DNA of 64,000 nt, from contig JAQURM010000001.1 of assembly GCA_028715605.1 (NCBI GenBank), positions 364,001-428,000 on the forward strand. Direction: 5' to 3'. This document shows, in pieces, positions 4,229 through 57,258 of the stretch. A program made the position numbers and the translations under genes. Positions within the stretch are counted from its first letter, which is position 1. Each line of letters begins with the position of its first letter. The DNA comes from Desulfovibrionales bacterium. Lineage in GTDB: Bacteria > Desulfobacterota > QYQD01. The notes beneath the pieces are model-generated. The model made no database searches, was not told the DNA's origin, and saw nothing but the letters and a program-made list of their open reading frames with translations.

Positions 4229-5374
4229 TTAGTTTTTTGAGGTATGACAGACATTACAGCCGCTCAGGGCCGTAGAAAGGGTGGTGCTCTTATAGTCCCA
4301 GCGGATCATCTTGTAATTCGGCGATCCATGGGCACGGTGGCAGGAAAGGCATATAACCATGCTTGTGCTGTCAACGGTCGAAGTCGATGTCGATGGCGTG
4401 GATAAAGCTATTGGAGCGGTAGTTGAGTAAGCATTTGTTCCACTGTTATAGCTGGCGTATTCTGAACCGGCATAGCCACCGCTTACCCCACTAAATGCAA
4501 AATCCGTAGGGTGTCTGAACCACGGCGAAGAAGAACCAACCTGTGTGGAACCTCCGAGATTGGCGTGCCCGTGAAAGTTGCCGTGGCAACTGCCGCATAA
4601 GTAACTGATGCCGTCCGTCGTGGTTCCGGGTGTGGCCCCGCCTTTGTATCCATTGTGATGGGTGGAATCGGCCGTCTGTTCCCATTTATAACCAGTAGCA
4701 TTTAACTCTACACCTGTTATGCCCCTTAGAAACCGGTAGCTTTTACCCACAGTTGAAGCATCTATGGTGCTGTCATCGGTATGATGGCCCCCCTTCATAG
4801 CCTCTACGACGGTGGCAGCCGTTGCACCTTGGGTGCGATCGCCATGACAGCCATACACACCGGCGCAGTTAAGTTGGGTGGCCCATGAGGCCGGCCCGGT
4901 TCCGTAGCCACTGGGCGTGCCGGCGCCGGCCGTGAAACCCGGCGGGGCATCCATCGGCGAGCCTTCCTGAGTCTTAATTCCATACACATTGTGACCATAT
5001 TTATCGCCCGTATTCACCAGCCAGTAAAAATTACCACCCGCCAGGGGGGAGGTAGGAGTCGTACTATTTAAGACTATGGGGATATTGCTTGAACCTACGC
5101 TTACAATGGTATTGGCCGTACTGGAAAAATGACAACCAACGCAGTCATAGGACAGCAGACACGGATTGGGTGTGGTATCCCCTGTCAACCCGCCGCTCCC
5201 GGAAGAATATTCCTGGGCCATGGCCGCGCCGCCCTGGCTGTTGTGCATGGTATGACAGTTGTAACAGACGCCGGTGACCTTGGCGTGGGATAAATTTGGG
5301 ATTACTACGATCAATGTCGCAATATATATAATGATTATTCGTAGTATTTTTACATCATGCCGCTTGAGTTCCAT
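4229..5374 (-). CDS. OmcS-like hexaheme extracellular cytochrome c
   Basis: Secreted multiheme cytochrome of 381 residues if started at ATG 5374; a longer TTG start at 5416 exists but puts 14 extra residues before a normal signal peptide (hydrophobic IIIIYIATLIVVIP, cleavage near SHA). Heme motifs in order: CYNCH (followed by TMHNSQGG), CVGCH, an expanded C-x5-CH (CAGVYGCH), CGSCH (GNFHGH), CLSCH (RAHGS), CNVCH near the C-terminus. The order and flanking residues (xCHTMHNSxGG first, CLSCHRAH fifth) match, from memory, the Geobacter nanowire cytochrome OmcS. It would sit outside the cell and carry electrons to external acceptors; polymerisation is inferred. It is last in a probable operon after a heptaheme cytochrome (82-base gap). 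The expanded third motif recurs in the paralogue at 42.8 kb. Confidence 0.85.
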   Translation of the reverse strand: MELKRHDVKILRIIIIYIATLIVVIPNLSHAKVTGVCYNCHTMHNSQGGAAMAQEYSSGSGGLTGDTTPNPCLLSYDCVGCHFSSTANTIVSVGSSNIPIVLNSTTPTSPLAGGNFYWLVNTGDKYGHNVYGIKTQEGSPMDAPPGFTAGAGTPSGYGTGPASWATQLNCAGVYGCHGDRTQGATAATVVEAMKGGHHTDDSTIDASTVGKSYRFLRGITGVELNATGYKWEQTADSTHHNGYKGGATPGTTTDGISYLCGSCHGNFHGHANLGGSTQVGSSSPWFRHPTDFAFSGVSGGYAGSEYASYNSGTNAYSTTAPIALSTPSTSTSTVDSTSMVICLSCHRAHGSPNYKMIRWDYKSTTLSTALSGCNVCHTSKN

Positions 5375-5456
5375 GGAACGGACCGTCTCTTGAATATTTA
5401 TTTTAAAATTTCCCAAACCCTATATATGGCAACAATCTTGCCATGGTATTCCCTCT

Positions 5457-6635
5457 TTAGATAGGTTTGAACCAGCTTGTGTCGTGTTGATGGCACACAT
5501 AGCACGGATTGGAGCCCTTGTGGCCGCTGTCGATGGTATGACAGCGCTGGCAGACCGTGAACCAGCCGGCTCGATCATTCCAGGTATCAAAGGTCACGAC
5601 GCTTGAGCCGTTTATTTCCTTACGGATGAGCATGCGGTTGGGGCTGCCATGGGTCTCGTGGCAATCAGTACAGGAAAGGACATAATTCTTATCTGCCGTG
5701 TAGGGAGCCTTTCTTTTCGTGGCGTCCATACTGGCATCGGCCTGCCCGTGCGGGGATGTAGTCCAGTTCGGACTCCTGATGTACGGCTGTGCACCGACGG
5801 TTGCGAACTGGGATTTCTGCGAGCTTGTCATCTGACCGGTGCTGTAAGAGGCATTGTGGCAGTCCGTACAAAACGTCACATAATCCGGCATATTGGATCC
5901 GTCCAAGGTAGCCGTACCTTCAGGCTCATAGGTCGTTGCGGAACCTGAAGAGTAAGGGGCCTGATAGACGTAGTTGCTCATCCGTTCGTTCGTGGCGGCG
6001 CCGTACACATTCCAGTCACCGTCATGCGTAGTGGGCCGGGAGAGCGGAGACGTGCCTGCGCTCCCCGACGGGTAGCTATGCCTCTGCGCCTTGTGCGGAT
6101 TGTGGCACCCGGAGCACGGATTCACCTTTGCGTTTGTGGCGCCGAATCCCCACTTGCTCTTCAAAAACGTTCTCACTGCCGTCATCTGGTGCGAAGATCC
6201 CGTGGTGGAGCCGCAGTTTGATTGGGGCACGCCGCCTTCTGTGATAAAGCTGAACGCCTGTGCGATGCTGCTTGGACAGATAAGACTGGTGTCCCCTCCG
6301 AATTTGTAACTGAAGGTGTATTGGTTGGGCATGCCTACCTGGCTGGAACTGCCGGCGTGGCAGCTGAGACAGAGCCCGGTATCCTGATCAGTATACAGGG
6401 TGGTGAAGACCAGCCATTTGTCGGGCCCACCCGTGGGGGCCGGTTCCACACCCTCGATACTGGCATGCATCTCGTGGCAGTGGGCGCAGTGCCCCTTGGT
6501 ATAGACGGAGGACGTGCTGCTTCGGTTTACACCATAAGAGGTATTCCCGTGGGCTGAATCAAGATAAGTCCCGGCATATACCGGAGTTGTGGTCAAGAAG
6601 ATACATATTGCAAGTGTGATTAAGGTATCTTTCAT
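5457..6635 (-). CDS. Heptaheme secreted cytochrome c
   Basis: 392 residues with a signal peptide (MKDTLITLAICIFLTTTPVYAG). Seven CxxCH motifs: CAHCH (EMHAS), CLSCH, CSGCH (NPHKAQRHSYP), CTDCH, CTDCH (ETHGSPNRMLIRK), CQRCH, CYVCH. The first and fifth motifs carry the MH and THGSPN followers that also occur in the OmcS-like neighbour, so the two are distant relatives with different heme counts. It probably acts in the periplasm or outside the cell in electron export. It lies between an NHL propeller gene and the OmcS-like gene in one direction. A GCCGATAA sequence (a sigma-28 -10 box) lies on this strand at 6687-6680, 44 bases before the start, but its -35 region is poor. Precise partner unknown. 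Confidence 0.85.
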   Translation of the reverse strand: MKDTLITLAICIFLTTTPVYAGTYLDSAHGNTSYGVNRSSTSSVYTKGHCAHCHEMHASIEGVEPAPTGGPDKWLVFTTLYTDQDTGLCLSCHAGSSSQVGMPNQYTFSYKFGGDTSLICPSSIAQAFSFITEGGVPQSNCGSTTGSSHQMTAVRTFLKSKWGFGATNAKVNPCSGCHNPHKAQRHSYPSGSAGTSPLSRPTTHDGDWNVYGAATNERMSNYVYQAPYSSGSATTYEPEGTATLDGSNMPDYVTFCTDCHNASYSTGQMTSSQKSQFATVGAQPYIRSPNWTTSPHGQADASMDATKRKAPYTADKNYVLSCTDCHETHGSPNRMLIRKEINGSSVVTFDTWNDRAGWFTVCQRCHTIDSGHKGSNPCYVCHQHDTSWFKPI

Positions 6636-42836: not shown

Positions 42837-43934
42837 ATGAGAATGGCAGGTATGTTAAAAACCGGCTGTTTGGCGGTTCTATTGAGCGCATTCCTGGCCT
42901 TGATACCGGTCGGGTATGCCCTGGCAACCGTCACAGGTGCCTGCGTAAACTGCCATACCATGCACAACAGCCAGGGTGGTACGGAAATGCAGTTAAAGGC
43001 TGGAGAGACAGACCCACAGGGAAACCTGGTGCGCGGGACCTGTATCGGTTGTCACGGGAGCGAACCAGCAGGGGCAAACAACATCGTTACCAACATCCCT
43101 CAGGTGTGGCACTCTGCAGCTACTGACCTGGGCGGCGGTAATTTCAAGTACGTCGTAGATAGTGGCGATGCCTACGGACACAACGTCGAGGGCATCACGA
43201 CTGCAGACGCCACATTAGCGAACACCCCCCCAGGCTATGCAGCAGCTATGGATCCTGCAAGCACGGATTACGCTACCGGCAGCCGGCTGACCTGTGGCGG
43301 GCAAAATGGTTGCCATGGCAACCGGGATAATTCCGGCAATTATGCCGGTGTAAGTGGAGCCCACCATGCCAGTGACGCCGTCCTCAAGTTTGGCGGTATC
43401 GTCGAAGGTTCTCAAGGGGCTTCTGTAGCCACCAGTTACCGTTTCCTCTACAAAGTAAAGGGTGGAGAGGACACCGATTGGCAGAACACGGTTGGTGCCG
43501 CTGACCACAATGAGTATAAAGGTGCAATCTATGCCGCCAGAACCACCATGGCCTGGGCGGATGTCAATACCATAAGCGAGCTCTGTGCCGAGTGCCATGG
43601 TAGTTTCCATATGTCAGGCGCTACCGGTATTGGTACAGCCAGCCCCTGGATAAGACATCCAACTGATGTGCTCATACCCAATAGCGGTGAATATGCAAGC
43701 ATCTCGACTACTTATAATCCTACGGTTCCCGTGGCCAGGGCTACGATCCCCAATGCGGCGAGCGGTACGGTAGCTGCCGGTACTGATGTCGTCATGTGCC
43801 TCTCCTGTCACCGGGCCCATGCCAGCGGCTATGCGGATATTCTGAGATGGGACTACAGTGGTATGATAGCGAACGGAGGCGCTAATACCACCGGATGCTT
43901 TGTCTGCCATACCACCAAGGATAACGGTAGTTAA
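42837..43934 (+). CDS. OmcS-like hexaheme extracellular cytochrome c (sigma-28 driven)
   Basis: 365 residues from ATG 42837; in-frame ATG at 42807 and TTG at 42795 (6 bases after AGGAGGGG) are alternatives that only lengthen the signal-peptide n-region. Hydrophobic core LKTGCLAVLLSAFLALIP, cleavage near ALA. Heme motifs: CVNCH (TMHNSQGG), CIGCH, expanded C-x5-CH (CGGQNGCHGN), CAECH (GSFH, SPWIRHP), CLSCH (RAHASGY), CFVCH (TTK). Spacer residues between motifs resemble the 4.2-kb and 56.1-kb paralogues (GDAYGHNVEGI, NEYKGAIYA). Expected to be secreted and to act in extracellular electron transfer, probably as a filament subunit. A strong terminator follows the stop, so it is transcribed alone. 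Confidence 0.88.
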   Translation: MRMAGMLKTGCLAVLLSAFLALIPVGYALATVTGACVNCHTMHNSQGGTEMQLKAGETDPQGNLVRGTCIGCHGSEPAGANNIVTNIPQVWHSAATDLGGGNFKYVVDSGDAYGHNVEGITTADATLANTPPGYAAAMDPASTDYATGSRLTCGGQNGCHGNRDNSGNYAGVSGAHHASDAVLKFGGIVEGSQGASVATSYRFLYKVKGGEDTDWQNTVGAADHNEYKGAIYAARTTMAWADVNTISELCAECHGSFHMSGATGIGTASPWIRHPTDVLIPNSGEYASISTTYNPTVPVARATIPNAASGTVAAGTDVVMCLSCHRAHASGYADILRWDYSGMIANGGANTTGCFVCHTTKDNGS

Positions 43935-44543: not shown

Positions 44544-44588
44544 CGCTTGCGTTGAATCACTATTCATCCCTTGTGGAGGAAGCGCTAT

Positions 44589-45392
44589 ATGTTTTATAAA
44601 AAAGGACTAGTTGTTGTATTTGCGGTTCTGGCTATAGGCCTTATGGCAGCGGTTTTGTATTATAACGGTCCTGTTGGTAATGCCATTGCTGCAGAGGCGG
44701 CCCTGTCCAACAGCGATTGTGTGAAGTGCCACCCGCAACAGCCGGAGACTATTGCCTCTAAAGGGGCCAAACACAAGACGGCTATTGGATGTTTGGATTG
44801 CCATACCGAACATCCACCCCAGGGCACGCAGGCTATCCCAAAATGTGCTATGTGCCATGCCGGTAAGCCTCACTATGAATTGCCCGAATGCGCTTCCTGC
44901 CATGCGGATACCCATGCCCCGTTAGATATCAAGATGGGCGAGAAGACCACGCCGGTATGTCTTACCTGCCATCCACAGCAGGGAAATGAGATGGCGGTTT
45001 CTCCAAGCAAACATGCCCAGTTGGATTGCTCAAAGTGTCACCCGGCGCACAGACAGTACCTCGATTGTCTAAAGTGTCACGATCCGCATACCCAAGGCAT
45101 GACCTTTGAGACCTGCAAGGCCTGTCATCCACCGCATAAGCCCCTGGATATCAAATATGGCATGGATACACCCTCAGAGACCTGTGCGGCGTGCCACTAT
45201 GATGCCTATGACAACTTGAAGGCCAACACTACGAAACATCATGATCTATCTTGTGCCTATTGCCATCGCGATAAACACAAGGTGGTTCCGCCCTGCGAGG
45301 CATGTCATGGGAAACCGCACGCATCCGGTATCCATGCGAAATATACGGAATGCGGCAAGTGTCATGGCGCTGCGCATACCCTGATGAAATAG
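44589..45392 (+). CDS. Dodecaheme (12 CxxCH) cytochrome c, membrane-anchored or secreted
   Basis: 267 residues from ATG 44589 (GGAGG 10 bases before); a TTG at 44571 is a frame extension. N-terminal hydrophobic segment (GLVVVFAVLAIGLMAAVLY), either a signal peptide or an anchor. Twelve CxxCH: CVKCH, CLDCH, CAMCH, CASCH, CLTCH, CSKCH, CLKCH, CKACH, CAACH, CAYCH, CEACH, CGKCH. One heme per ~21 residues, each motif mostly followed within a few residues by a His that can be a distal ligand (CHxxH, CHPPH). Family: c7/c3-like wires. Probably shuttles electrons across the periplasm. Close relative of the next gene. Confidence 0.9.
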   Translation: MFYKKGLVVVFAVLAIGLMAAVLYYNGPVGNAIAAEAALSNSDCVKCHPQQPETIASKGAKHKTAIGCLDCHTEHPPQGTQAIPKCAMCHAGKPHYELPECASCHADTHAPLDIKMGEKTTPVCLTCHPQQGNEMAVSPSKHAQLDCSKCHPAHRQYLDCLKCHDPHTQGMTFETCKACHPPHKPLDIKYGMDTPSETCAACHYDAYDNLKANTTKHHDLSCAYCHRDKHKVVPPCEACHGKPHASGIHAKYTECGKCHGAAHTLMK

Positions 45393-45469
45393 GCCGGTTG
45401 GCCTGATACGTAAGCGATAAGGGGCGCCCCAAAGGCGCCTCTCCAAGGTTTAGTTATGAGAGGTGGACA

Positions 45470-46393
45470 ATGAAAAGATTGCTGGTAGCCTTTGGGGGGT
45501 TAGTATTACTGCTTATCGCAGTTATTTGGGGTTGCGCGGAGCAGCGTGTAGTTACGGTGCCGGCCCCGGGTACTGTTGTAGAAGAAGGGGGCATGGCTAT
45601 TATGCCGGCCCCGGCGGAAACGCCAGCGGTAGTGGCAACGCCGGCTAAGGCCAAGGCCAAAATAGTGCCGCTGTATGAGAAGGAGATATCGCCTCTAAAG
45701 ACAGAGCAGTGCGGTCAGTGCCATTTGTATTATTACAATACCATCCGCAATGAAGGCGGCAAGCACCAGATCGATTGCACCAAGTGTCATGAAAAATACC
45801 ACGTGTACCGTCCGGACAAGGTCAAATACGAAGACATTATGCCTAAATGCAACACCTGTCACGGACTGGCTCACGGTGATAAACTGGCTAACTGCGTTGC
45901 TTGCCACGCCAACCCACATGCGCCGACGGGCAAGATGGCCGGTCCGGACATGGATGCCGGATGTTCCACCTGTCACGGCAAGGTAGCCGACGAGCTTAAG
46001 ACCCATAAGAGTAAACATACAGACGTGGCGTGTTCCGACTGCCATACCGTGCACCGTCATATTCCGGTTTGTGCCGATTGTCATACACCGCATACACCGA
46101 CCCAGACCAATGCCGAGTGTTTAAGCTGCCACCCGGTGCACAGGCCACTGGTGATCACGTATCCGCTCGAAACACCACGCGACACCTGTGGGGCATGCCA
46201 TCCCAAGGCCCTGCAGGAACTCCAGAAGAGCCAGACCAAGCACGATCAACTAAGTTGTGCCAAATGCCATCCCAAACATCGGGATATTATCCAGTGCGAG
46301 GCCTGCCATGGCCAGCCGCATAGCCCGACTATGCTTAAGGGCTTCAAAAAATGCGGTGACTGCCATAATACTGCCCACGCTATGCCCAGGTAA
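45470..46393 (+). CDS. Dodecaheme lipoprotein cytochrome c
   Basis: 307 residues. Signal peptide with lipobox AVIWGC, so the mature protein is lipid-anchored at Cys22. A 50-residue Pro/Ala linker (TVPAPGTVVEEGG, PAPAETPAVVATPAKAKAK) precedes twelve CxxCH: CGQCH, CTKCH, CNTCH, CVACH, CSTCH, CSDCH, CADCH, CLSCH, CGACH, CAKCH, CEACH, CGDCH. Heme spacing follows the preceding gene from motif to motif (ETPRDTCGACH vs TPSETCAACH; CEACHGQPH vs CEACHGKPH), so the two are tandem duplicates with different anchoring. It may sit on the outer membrane periplasmic face. 77-base gap to gene 1; terminator after stop. Confidence 0.92.
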   Translation: MKRLLVAFGGLVLLLIAVIWGCAEQRVVTVPAPGTVVEEGGMAIMPAPAETPAVVATPAKAKAKIVPLYEKEISPLKTEQCGQCHLYYYNTIRNEGGKHQIDCTKCHEKYHVYRPDKVKYEDIMPKCNTCHGLAHGDKLANCVACHANPHAPTGKMAGPDMDAGCSTCHGKVADELKTHKSKHTDVACSDCHTVHRHIPVCADCHTPHTPTQTNAECLSCHPVHRPLVITYPLETPRDTCGACHPKALQELQKSQTKHDQLSCAKCHPKHRDIIQCEACHGQPHSPTMLKGFKKCGDCHNTAHAMPR

Positions 46394-46451: not shown

Positions 46452-46783
46452 GCATTCTAGGGATGGAAAATGTCATCCCTTCGCTTCACGGCTTGCGCAG
46501 TGATCCGCCTCCGGCGGGACTCGCAGGTGGGGAAGGGTTGCCCCTTCCAGCCTCTAAAGGGCTGGCTTTCCCCTTCCTGCTCGCCCTCGAAGGGTTCCCC
46601 ACTGCTCCAAGCAAGTTTCGCGAAGGAACAACGGCTTCCATAAAAATGTGGGGAAAGTCCTAAGGCTATAAAATCCTTGACAAGCGGGGGACAGGGATGT
46701 TAATGAATGGACTGCTTTTTAGGTAGTCTTCACAAGATTTCCGTGACTTATGACACCTTAACAACCCTTTGAGATACAATGAC
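46452..46783. repeat. Gap with second copy of the ~150-bp interspersed repeat
   Basis: 46478-46640 is the partner of 33235-33384 in opposite orientation, with a few small indels (e.g. GGCGGGACTCGCAGG vs GGCACTCGCAGGC). The rest (46641-46783) shows no gene. Confidence 0.8.
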
Positions 46784-48154
46784 ATGAAACCGGAAAACAG
46801 CCCGTCAGTACCACCTGAAAAAAAACAACCTGTCTGGAAATCTCTCGCCTCGGTTAACCTCACCATATTTCTACTTATATTTCTCGCGGTAAGCTCTATT
46901 GTCGGGACTCTTATCCCTCAAAATGAGCCTCCCGCTATGTATGTTCAGCGGTATGGGTATGGCACTTACCAGCTTTTGGATTCGTTATCTCTTCTGGACC
47001 TCTATCACTCGGGTTGGTTTAGACTCCTTCTCCTTCTCCTGGCGCTGAACCTTATCGTCTGTACTACGGACAGGCTCCGGCATGTCTGGGATATTGTTTT
47101 CCCAAAAGAAAAGAGGCTTAACGAAAACGCTGTCCTGACCAAGCCAGGGACGAGGGCCTTAAAATATAAAGCGAACCCTTCCGTGGTTAAGGCCGCACTC
47201 TTGCCCATTCTTTCAGGTAATCTGGGCGACCTGAACGAGACTACCACCGGCTCAACAACAATTCTCTGGCGAGAAAAGGGAAGGTTATCCCGTCTCGGCG
47301 TCTATGTTGTGCATCTTAGTGTCGTTATTTTCTATATTGCCGGGATAGCGAGCTCTCTGGGTGGGTTCATGACCAGCATTAATCTGCCGGAAGGGGCGGC
47401 GGTGGAACAGGTGCCCCTGCCTAATACTAACGTAGGCTATAACCTGGGCTTTGCCCTCCGCGTTGACAAGTTTGAGGCCCAGTTTTATCCCACCGGCGAA
47501 CCAAGGGATTACCGCAGCGACATAACCATTATCGAAAACGGGAAGCCGGTTTTGAACGGCAACATCCGGGTCAACCAGCCTCTTACGTACAGAGGTATCA
47601 CTTTTTATCAGGCCTCTTACGGCCGCTTCCCAAAGACGATTGAACTTAATCTGGTTGATAAAACCAGCGGGAAAATCATTCCGCTTTCTGTTCCATTCGG
47701 CCAGGAGGCCATTTTGCCTGATGGGCTGGGCACCCTCCGTTCATTACGGGTTGAACCGAATGTGATGGATATGGGCCCCGCGGTTCAGATGCTGCTGACC
47801 AGCCCTGAGGGAGGACAAACCGACCTTTGGATATTCAAAAACAACCCGGACTTTGGACGGGTCAAGAAATTACCGTACCGGTTTCTTGTAACTGAGGTAA
47901 GGGAAGGTTTCTACACCGGCCTCCAGGTAGCCAAGGAACCGGGCATCCTCTTTGTCTGGGCCGGCAGTATATTAATGGTATTGGGAATTGCCGTGACCTT
48001 TTTCATGTCACACCGTAAGATATGGGCTGTGCTGGAGAAAAAAGGCGAGGGGACAACGGTTACCATCGGCGGCCAGACAAATAAAAACAAACTGGGGTTG
48101 GAAGAAAGGCTTGATAATCTCTACCTGCAACTCCAGAAAGCCGATATAAAATAA
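46784..48154 (+). CDS. resB: ResB/Ccs1-type cytochrome c biogenesis protein
   Basis: 456 residues from ATG 46784 (TTG at 46769 is only an extension). Three N-terminal helices around VNLTIFLLIFLAVSSIVGTLIPQ, SGWFRLLLLLLALNLIV and RLGVYVVHLSVVIFYIAGI, then a ~230-residue periplasmic domain (FALRVDKFEAQFYPTGEPRD, NGNIRVNQPLTYRGITFYQ), then a last helix (GILFVWAGSILMVLGI). With CcsA it forms the system II synthase that attaches heme to CxxCH apocytochromes. HxS/LTYRG motifs are typical of ResB. Next gene ccsA starts 18 bases later; one operon. No clear ribosome site before the ATG. Confidence 0.95.
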   Translation: MKPENSPSVPPEKKQPVWKSLASVNLTIFLLIFLAVSSIVGTLIPQNEPPAMYVQRYGYGTYQLLDSLSLLDLYHSGWFRLLLLLLALNLIVCTTDRLRHVWDIVFPKEKRLNENAVLTKPGTRALKYKANPSVVKAALLPILSGNLGDLNETTTGSTTILWREKGRLSRLGVYVVHLSVVIFYIAGIASSLGGFMTSINLPEGAAVEQVPLPNTNVGYNLGFALRVDKFEAQFYPTGEPRDYRSDITIIENGKPVLNGNIRVNQPLTYRGITFYQASYGRFPKTIELNLVDKTSGKIIPLSVPFGQEAILPDGLGTLRSLRVEPNVMDMGPAVQMLLTSPEGGQTDLWIFKNNPDFGRVKKLPYRFLVTEVREGFYTGLQVAKEPGILFVWAGSILMVLGIAVTFFMSHRKIWAVLEKKGEGTTVTIGGQTNKNKLGLEERLDNLYLQLQKADIK

Positions 48155-56088: not shown

Positions 56089-57258
56089 CTAATTCTTGCT
56101 TGTGTGACACTGGAAGCAGCCGCCGGTTCCTCCACCGCTGGCCTGGATAGTCGCATAGTCCCATCGAAGCATGTCAGGATAGGGGCTGGCGTGGGCCTTA
56201 TGGCAGGAGAGACACATAACCATGTCCGTACCGATGGTTACCGTGTCACTGACCGCGACGAGTGCGGGGCGGGCTACGGGGACGATGGGGTCATACGTCG
56301 CGGTGCCGCCACCGGCACCGAAAGCGTCGGCGTATTCACCGGACGCCGGTATCCTGCGATCTACGGGGTGTCGTATCCAGGCCCCTCCCTGTCTCTTGAT
56401 GTGGAAATTTCCGTGACAACCGCAGCAGAAGGCTGTGGCCGTGTTGGCCTGTATGGAGACAAACCCGCCAGTCCCGCTGGCGACCTGCTTACCGAGGTAC
56501 TCATTATGGTCATTGGCACTGCTGGTGTATTGCCAGTCGCCGTCCTCTATGCCTGCAACTCCGTACTGGTAACCGCTGAAATGGCCCGACAGAAAGCGGT
56601 ACCATCCCTCTGCAGCGCTATCCGCCACCCCATCCGTAACACTGGTATGATGCCAACTCTTGATTTGACTGAACTTGTTGAAGCCTGATACCATATGACA
56701 GCCGGTGCAGCCGGATCGCCCGTTCAGGTAGCCATGAATGGGCTCGAATTCGGAAGAAGCCTGAAAAGGAAGATGGAGATTGCTATGGCAAACGTTTGTG
56801 CCACAGCCGCCGCCTACGTACGCTTCCCCGGGGGCGCTCATCAGGACGTCATCGGGATTGGTTGAGAATATGTTATGCCCGTTTGCGTCATTTACCGTTA
56901 CCCAATAAAAATTCCCGCCGGCGAGGCCTTGACTGCCGTAGGAGGGCTGGCCGGTATTATTGACAATAGGAGCGCCGGTTACCGGATCTTTCCAGGTCGC
57001 GCCGTCGGTGGCTGAATGGCAGCCCACACAGTCGCCTACCAGGAGTTGACCGTAGGGGCCTCCGGGTTCTACCGGAAGCCCCCCCTGACTGTTGTGCATG
57101 GTGTGGCAGTTGGCACATGGTCCTGTTACTCTGGCGGAAGCGGCGGGTGGGAGCGATAGGATCAGGACAAGGGAAAAGATTAAAGTCGCCGCGAATGTGA
57201 GTGCCTTTTGCCGGGGTATCTTGATGACCGATTTCGTCCGGTCCTTGGGCATGACCAT
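56089..57258 (-). CDS. OmcS-like heptaheme extracellular cytochrome c
   Basis: 389 residues. Signal peptide (ALTFAATLIFSLVLILSLPP, ending ASA). Heme motifs: CANCH (TMHNSQGG), CVGCH, expanded C-x4-CH (CGTNVCH), an additional CTGCH (MVSGFNKF), CCGCH (GNFHIKRQGGAWIRHP), CLSCH (KAHASPYPDMLRW), CFQCH (TSKN). The added CTGCH makes seven motifs against six in the two paralogues, and the third motif has one residue less than the C-x5-CH there. AGGAG lies 11 bases before ATG 57258. It is convergent with prfC and starts a separate transcript. Confidence 0.88.
   Translation of the reverse strand: MVMPKDRTKSVIKIPRQKALTFAATLIFSLVLILSLPPAASARVTGPCANCHTMHNSQGGLPVEPGGPYGQLLVGDCVGCHSATDGATWKDPVTGAPIVNNTGQPSYGSQGLAGGNFYWVTVNDANGHNIFSTNPDDVLMSAPGEAYVGGGCGTNVCHSNLHLPFQASSEFEPIHGYLNGRSGCTGCHMVSGFNKFSQIKSWHHTSVTDGVADSAAEGWYRFLSGHFSGYQYGVAGIEDGDWQYTSSANDHNEYLGKQVASGTGGFVSIQANTATAFCCGCHGNFHIKRQGGAWIRHPVDRRIPASGEYADAFGAGGGTATYDPIVPVARPALVAVSDTVTIGTDMVMCLSCHKAHASPYPDMLRWDYATIQASGGGTGGCFQCHTSKN

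Follow-up and report, generated by a model that had tools for sequence, protein, structure and literature searches.

Heme is normally anchored to c-type cytochromes by a short CxxCH motif. The window analyzed here, by which we mean the whole stretch of 64,000 nucleotides, encodes three relatives of the nanowire cytochrome OmcS in which one motif is stretched, and this raises the question of whether the stretched site still holds a heme. A sequence-only reading had framed the problem as a choice: either the maturation machinery must accept the motif or the heme chain has a gap. These alternatives proved apt, and the comparative evidence presented below favors, by inference, a bound heme. We assign a probability of roughly 0.78 to the reading that the expanded motif holds heme 3, with an unbroken heme chain and attachment by the general System II machinery.

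Three OmcS-related cytochromes and their third motif

The features of the three genes are as follows.

4229..5416, minus strand: P0002, OmcS-related cytochrome with five CxxCH motifs and one Cx5CH (alternative ATG start at 5374)
5243..5266, minus strand: first motif of P0002, CYNCHTMH, whose last His is the counterpart of what we take to be the between-subunit ligand of OmcS
4844..4867, minus strand: stretched third motif of P0002, CAGVYGCH (Cx5CH)
4781..4786, minus strand: HH pair of P0002, proposed stand-in for the DPH distal ligand of OmcS
42837..43934, plus strand: P0001, OmcS-related cytochrome with five CxxCH motifs and one Cx5CH
43293..43316, plus strand: stretched third motif of P0001, CGGQNGCH (Cx5CH)
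56089..57258, minus strand: P0004, a relative with six CxxCH motifs and one Cx4CH, seven in all
56785..56805, minus strand: stretched motif of P0004, CGTNVCH (Cx4CH)
56695..56709, minus strand: extra CTGCH motif of P0004, downstream of the x4 motif

The positions of the three cytochromes and the wording of their stretched motifs given in the sequence-only reading were confirmed, and translation supplied the strands, which it had not given. The motif is stretched in all three, as that reading stated, but the proteins do not represent one common state. The six-motif order proposed for all three applies to P0002 and P0001 (five CxxCH plus Cx5CH); P0004 has seven motifs, the CTGCH having been omitted. 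None of the three fits the six-CxxCH pattern of OmcS-type nanowire cytochromes, and Pfam returned nothing beyond general cytochrome models. The His of CHTMH is present in P0002, P0001 and P0004. All three appear to be secreted, judging by eye from their N-termini.

Among solved structures, OmcS was the only convincing sequence match of P0002 (E 6.5e-12) and P0001 (E 2.4e-5). P0004 had no OmcS match in the same search and was assigned to the family by profile. Compared with OmcS (PDB 6ef8/6nef), the order of motifs is the same and the His residues of CHTMH, GHN, HP and RAH are conserved, whereas motif 3 is Cx5CH rather than CxxCH and an HH pair is found in place of DPH. Further differences are the larger number of conserved distal-type His residues in proteins with the x5 motif and the seventh motif of P0004. 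The statement that OmcS itself has a plain CxxCH at this place was correct: the motif is CSSCH in OmcS and CxxCH in 39/39 proteins of the OmcS clade.

An AF2 model of P0002 built from 86 rows (pLDDT 90.6, pTM 0.89) has the full-length OmcS fold. Alignment to 6ef8_A with VIA-align gave Z 17.1 over 265 aligned residues at 31% identity, spanning 1-350 of the model and 3-407 of the chain, and OmcS was the sole match returned by Foldseek. OmcE (PDB 7tfs), which unlike P0002, P0001 and P0004 has four hemes, matched the P0002 model weakly, with Z 4.3 over 134 residues, a level that alone is no proof of kinship. The P0004 model, built from 20 rows, had a pLDDT of 44.1 and was too poor for fold comparison.

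Conservation and spacing across the family

A search of the own genome with P0002 gave 14 matches, consisting of nine distinct members, a second copy of one of them, gene pieces and two weak hits. Five of the nine members carry x5 at site 3. The other four have an additional CxxCH, three of them together with x4 and one with x2. Genome-wide, seven places match the DNA pattern for CxGxxGCH; six of these are the x5 genes, while the seventh lies outside any cytochrome frame. Chance origin of the motif was considered and ruled out, given the confinement of the DNA pattern to the OmcS-related family in this genome and the invariance of the motif in relatives. Two copies of one x5 paralog lie 13.8 kb apart on contig C12 of G000, at 5473 and 19301 (L007 and L008); their predicted proteins are identical, their DNA stretches not wholly so.

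Relatives were gathered by scanning contigs with patterns for the regions of the first and fifth motifs, motif 3 being left out of the search. The best 80 of 507 loci were taken, and these come from Nitrospirota, Desulfobacterota, Thermodesulfobacteria, Deferribacteres and others. Further members were taken from whole genomes, where matches occurred in 35 of 198 in the own phylum and 48 of 394 in the phylum of G202 (many genomes being common to both) and, with OmcS as query, in 52 of 277 in the class of G199; a subset of these matches was used. Reduction at 80% shared 5-mers left 256 unique members: 141 full-length x5 proteins, 46 seven-motif proteins, 39 of the OmcS clade, 10 others and 20 fragments. 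The fragments were put aside; eight still show x5 and 12 only x2.

In the x5 class, the two Cys and the adjacent His of motif 3 are kept in 141/141 full-length proteins, which is the conservation expected of a c-type heme site. The wording CxGxxGCHG is found in 140/141 and Cx5CHG in 141/141, and no decayed x5 site was seen among the 256 unique members. The corresponding motif of the seven-motif class varies in spacing (x2 in 17, x3 in 10, x4 in 13 and x6 in 1 of 41), with at least eight spacing changes on the tree, and both Cys and the His were retained each time. Additionally, 21/141 x5 proteins carry an extra motif in a conserved context before heme 4, and this second site is also variable: x2 in 12, x3 in two, x4 in four, x5 in one and x6 in two, with seven spacing changes among the 20 on the tree. 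That the Cys, Cys and His survive every spacing change is not easily explained by a disulfide or by a lost site.

Trees were built without the site columns. In a mixture-model tree of 199 rows, the OmcS clade occupies one side of a branch (support 98) and the seven-motif class one side of another (97), while x5 and seven-motif proteins together stand against the rest with support 92. Thus both classes fall outside the OmcS clade. P0002 and P0001 belong to the class with fixed x5, separate from the OmcS clade, and P0004 belongs to the seven-motif class, with spacings from x2 to x6. A first tree (LG+G4, 200 rows) nested the seven-motif class inside x5, with supports of 95, 94, 96 and 93 on some branches and 29-84 on others; in that tree L043, one of the 10 other members, grouped with the seven-motif class, and its frame at 622-1485 was excluded from later trees for its long branch. 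A mixture-model tree of 83 of the 200 rows placed x5 on one side of a branch (62/73). An origin of the seven-motif class within x5 is therefore not upheld, as the first tree speaks for it, the 83-row tree otherwise, and the 199-row tree decides neither way.

Taken together, we consider it likely that these proteins form a large OmcS-like sister class, found in Desulfobacterota, Nitrospirota and further groups, Desulfofervidaceae among them. Heme 3 would be held there by an invariant C-x5-C-H, heme-motif spacing would vary between x2 and x6 at two sites, and one general System II synthase would mature all of these proteins.

Ligand assignment and competing readings of motif 3

In the favored reading, C-x-G-x-x-G-C-H (x4 in P0004) takes the place of CxxCH as the holder of heme 3. 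The two motif Cys would bind the vinyls of one heme and the motif His would be its proximal ligand, while the distal role of the OmcS DPH would be taken over by the conserved HH some 10-25 residues further on. The chain would then be continuous, with six hemes in P0002 and P0001 and seven in P0004.

The distribution of His residues outside the motifs bears on this proposal. In the OmcS clade (n=39) they are TMH in 36, RH in 34, and GHN, DPH, HP and RAH in 39 each; in the x5 class (n=141) they are TMH in 132, GHN in 140, both His of HH in 141, HN in 135, FH in 140, HP in 141 and RAH in 141. The CHTMH His is found in 46/46 seven-motif proteins. HH occurs in 141/141 x5 and 46/46 seven-motif proteins and in 0/39 of the OmcS clade, so that, on the alignments, DPH is exchanged for HH in both classes. 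The distal ligand of heme 3 is probably RAH. Most likely, to judge from these sequence comparisons, the OmcS-related class with the expanded motif is heme-binding.

A competing explanation is that heme 3 has been lost in x5 proteins. The two Cys would form a disulfide over a hairpin, the His would be the old DPH ligand of a neighboring heme, and the chain would be gapped or rerouted. This reading follows from the multiple alignment, in which CSSCHDPHG of OmcS and CAGVYGCHG of P0002 are of equal length and align without a gap, so that the x5 His falls on that of DPH. The P0002 model is also compatible with it: motif 3 forms a beta hairpin (strands 138-141 and 145-148, pLDDT 92-95), the other five motifs being helical, and its two Cys face each other across the strands in an arrangement that would also suit a disulfide. 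We weigh the hairpin as a mild counterpoint, because AF2 models without heme and has, to our knowledge, little precedent for such motif spacing.

Profile alignments, however, open a gap between the Cys: hhalign places three added residues there, so that the Cys, Cys and His of x5 fall on CSSCH of OmcS. The position that best discriminates between the two readings, as far as sequence can tell, is +3 after the motif His. The OmcS clade has CHxxH at motif 3 in 39/39, and the x5 proteins (n=141) have His at +3 in 23 and Arg in 92, compared with His counts of 0, 0, 1, 1, 0, 0 and 1 at +1, +2, +4, +5, +6, +7 and +8. This enrichment matches the CHxxH spacing of OmcS, and the x5 motif His is accordingly expected to be proximal. 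Twenty of the 23 carriers are on the tree: two belong to the x5 group that branches first, and 18 to a later group. Furthermore, HH already substitutes for DPH in both classes, RAH stays in 141/141, and the corresponding site of the seven-motif class is canonical x2 in 17/41, all of which speak against a loss of heme 3. We therefore regard loss of heme 3 as unlikely.

A heme held by a single thioether, through the Cys beside the His, leaving the first Cys unbound or in another role, would fit the loose spacing among relatives, and single-Cys c-type hemes are known elsewhere. Yet the first Cys of the x5 motif is as invariant as the second (141/141), which makes this reading very improbable.

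The case of P0004 is less clear. The expectation that the stretched motifs align with heme 3 of OmcS was borne out for all three proteins by hhalign profile-profile comparison, but multiple alignments put the CTGCH of P0004 there instead, and the disagreement makes its heme-3 correspondence ambiguous. In P0004 the x4 motif may thus belong to a heme inserted between hemes 2 and 3, with CTGCH as the true heme 3 and the stretched heme 3 confined to P0002 and P0001. Consistent with this, multiple alignments group CTGCH with the CH of x5 and a common HH, and the CxSCHxPxHH of x2 members resembles CxSCHDPHG of OmcS. In contrast, hhalign (OmcS against seven-motif and seven-motif against x5) pairs x4 with OmcS heme 3 and with x5, leaving CTGCH as the insertion; in pairings with the outgroup the site is not seen. 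We rate an inserted x4 heme at somewhat under even odds; it is compatible with a heme-bearing stretched motif in P0002 and P0001.

The x5 class offers eight candidate distal ligands, compared with the six that six hemes require, leaving two surplus His. The surplus (among model positions H167, H168 and H210) could possibly mark a metal or extra cofactor site.

In OmcS the CHTMH His is presumably a ligand to heme 5 of the neighboring subunit. One x5 paralog of the own genome (L004, 1492-2508) has CHASYKA in place of CHTMHNS, and so lacks the supposed subunit-bridging His; it may be unable to polymerize.

Heme attachment, gene neighborhood and implications

The genes for heme attachment lie within the window.

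46769..48154, plus strand: ResB of System II cytochrome c synthesis (PF05140, 4.5e-94), the single such gene in the genome
48173..48973, plus strand: CcsA, partner of ResB (PF01578, 1.6e-52)

Two genes with PF01578 are present in the genome; CcsA is one, and the second has siroheme and HemA genes as neighbors. CcmE was found 0 times in the own genome, which is 97.5% complete, while a control search was positive in 5/14; System II is thus present and the System I marker absent. With one ResB gene and no CcmE, the general System II enzyme would have to attach any heme at the stretched site, and ResB-CcsA would need to accept spacings from x2 to x6 in this OmcS-related family. No dedicated second synthase was found in the own genome, although at 97.5% completeness one could have been missed. 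Similarly, 13 of 15 x5-bearing genomes have a single ResB gene, with more than one in G129 and G194. In four of five genomes of the genus (own, G017, G055 and G120), the distance between x5 genes and ResB is about 2-3 kb.

According to PMC10663686, CXXCH is the motif accepted by canonical CcsBA, and dedicated machines serve CXXCK and CX15CH; PMC7096707 calls the system flexible towards longer spacing. The motifs served by NrfI and CcsA1, as treated in the two papers, resemble ours in departing from CxxCH and differ in having dedicated synthases, where the own genome has one ResB gene only. CX3CH and CX4CH appear in published surveys. No instance of CX5CH, CXXXXXCH, CX6CH or similar spellings was found in the openly available literature covered, and a CcsBA paper checked for spacing variants described none.

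A heme at this site would mean that the spacing rule for finding and counting c-type hemes is too narrow for this nanowire-related family. Counting only CxxCH or Cx2-4CH motifs would then mistake x5 proteins for pentaheme ones. A 2026 mBio survey (PMC12977616) gathered hexaheme OmcS relatives similar in length; x5 proteins would score five if its heme counts rested on CxxCH. Additionally, the view in PMC10663686 that rare departures from CxxCH have dedicated synthases would not cover modest stretching. Desulfofervidaceae are discussed as methane-oxidation partners (HotSeep-1) in PMC10553843, and Desulfofervidaceae loci (L033, L038 and L055) carry x5, so the heme content of these proteins bears on electron-transfer models there. 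The x5 motif is also present at loci L062 and L072 of Thermodesulfobacterium hydrogeniphilum. Should the site hold no heme, a wire-like protein whose chain is interrupted at heme 3 would be equally worth knowing.

The neighborhoods of P0002 and P0001 include further cytochromes.

5457..6635, minus strand: seven-CxxCH cytochrome adjoining P0002
6815..8020, minus strand: NHL-repeat protein, upstream in the P0002 cluster (PF01436, 1.2e-7)
44571..46393, plus strand: tandem pair of cytochromes, each with 12 CxxCH, lying between P0001 and ResB

In other phyla, x5 genes lie downstream of genes for a PPIase, 26-motif and 16-motif cytochromes and an NHL protein. This association of x5 genes with 26-motif, 16-motif, NHL and 7-8-motif genes resembles the oet clusters (OmcS-like/OmcX/Apc2a) in PMC10553843; cytochromes are identified there by the word CxxCH, and the likeness is at the level of the cluster, not of a named gene. 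A gene block is tied to OmcS maturation and secretion in PMC12977616. The resemblance to oet speaks for a function in extracellular electron transfer, and these OmcS-like proteins would presumably form filaments.

At seven loci (L013, L014, L018, L031, L039, L059 and L068), x5 genes recur with 26-motif and 16-motif cytochromes, and those of them that were scanned encode PPIase, NHL or fn3 proteins. Finally, a single frame of 728 residues (L034, 3261-5444) fuses relatives of P0002, with x5, and of its seven-CxxCH neighbor, at 42% and 43% identity, which hints that the x5 protein and the seven-CxxCH cytochrome work together.
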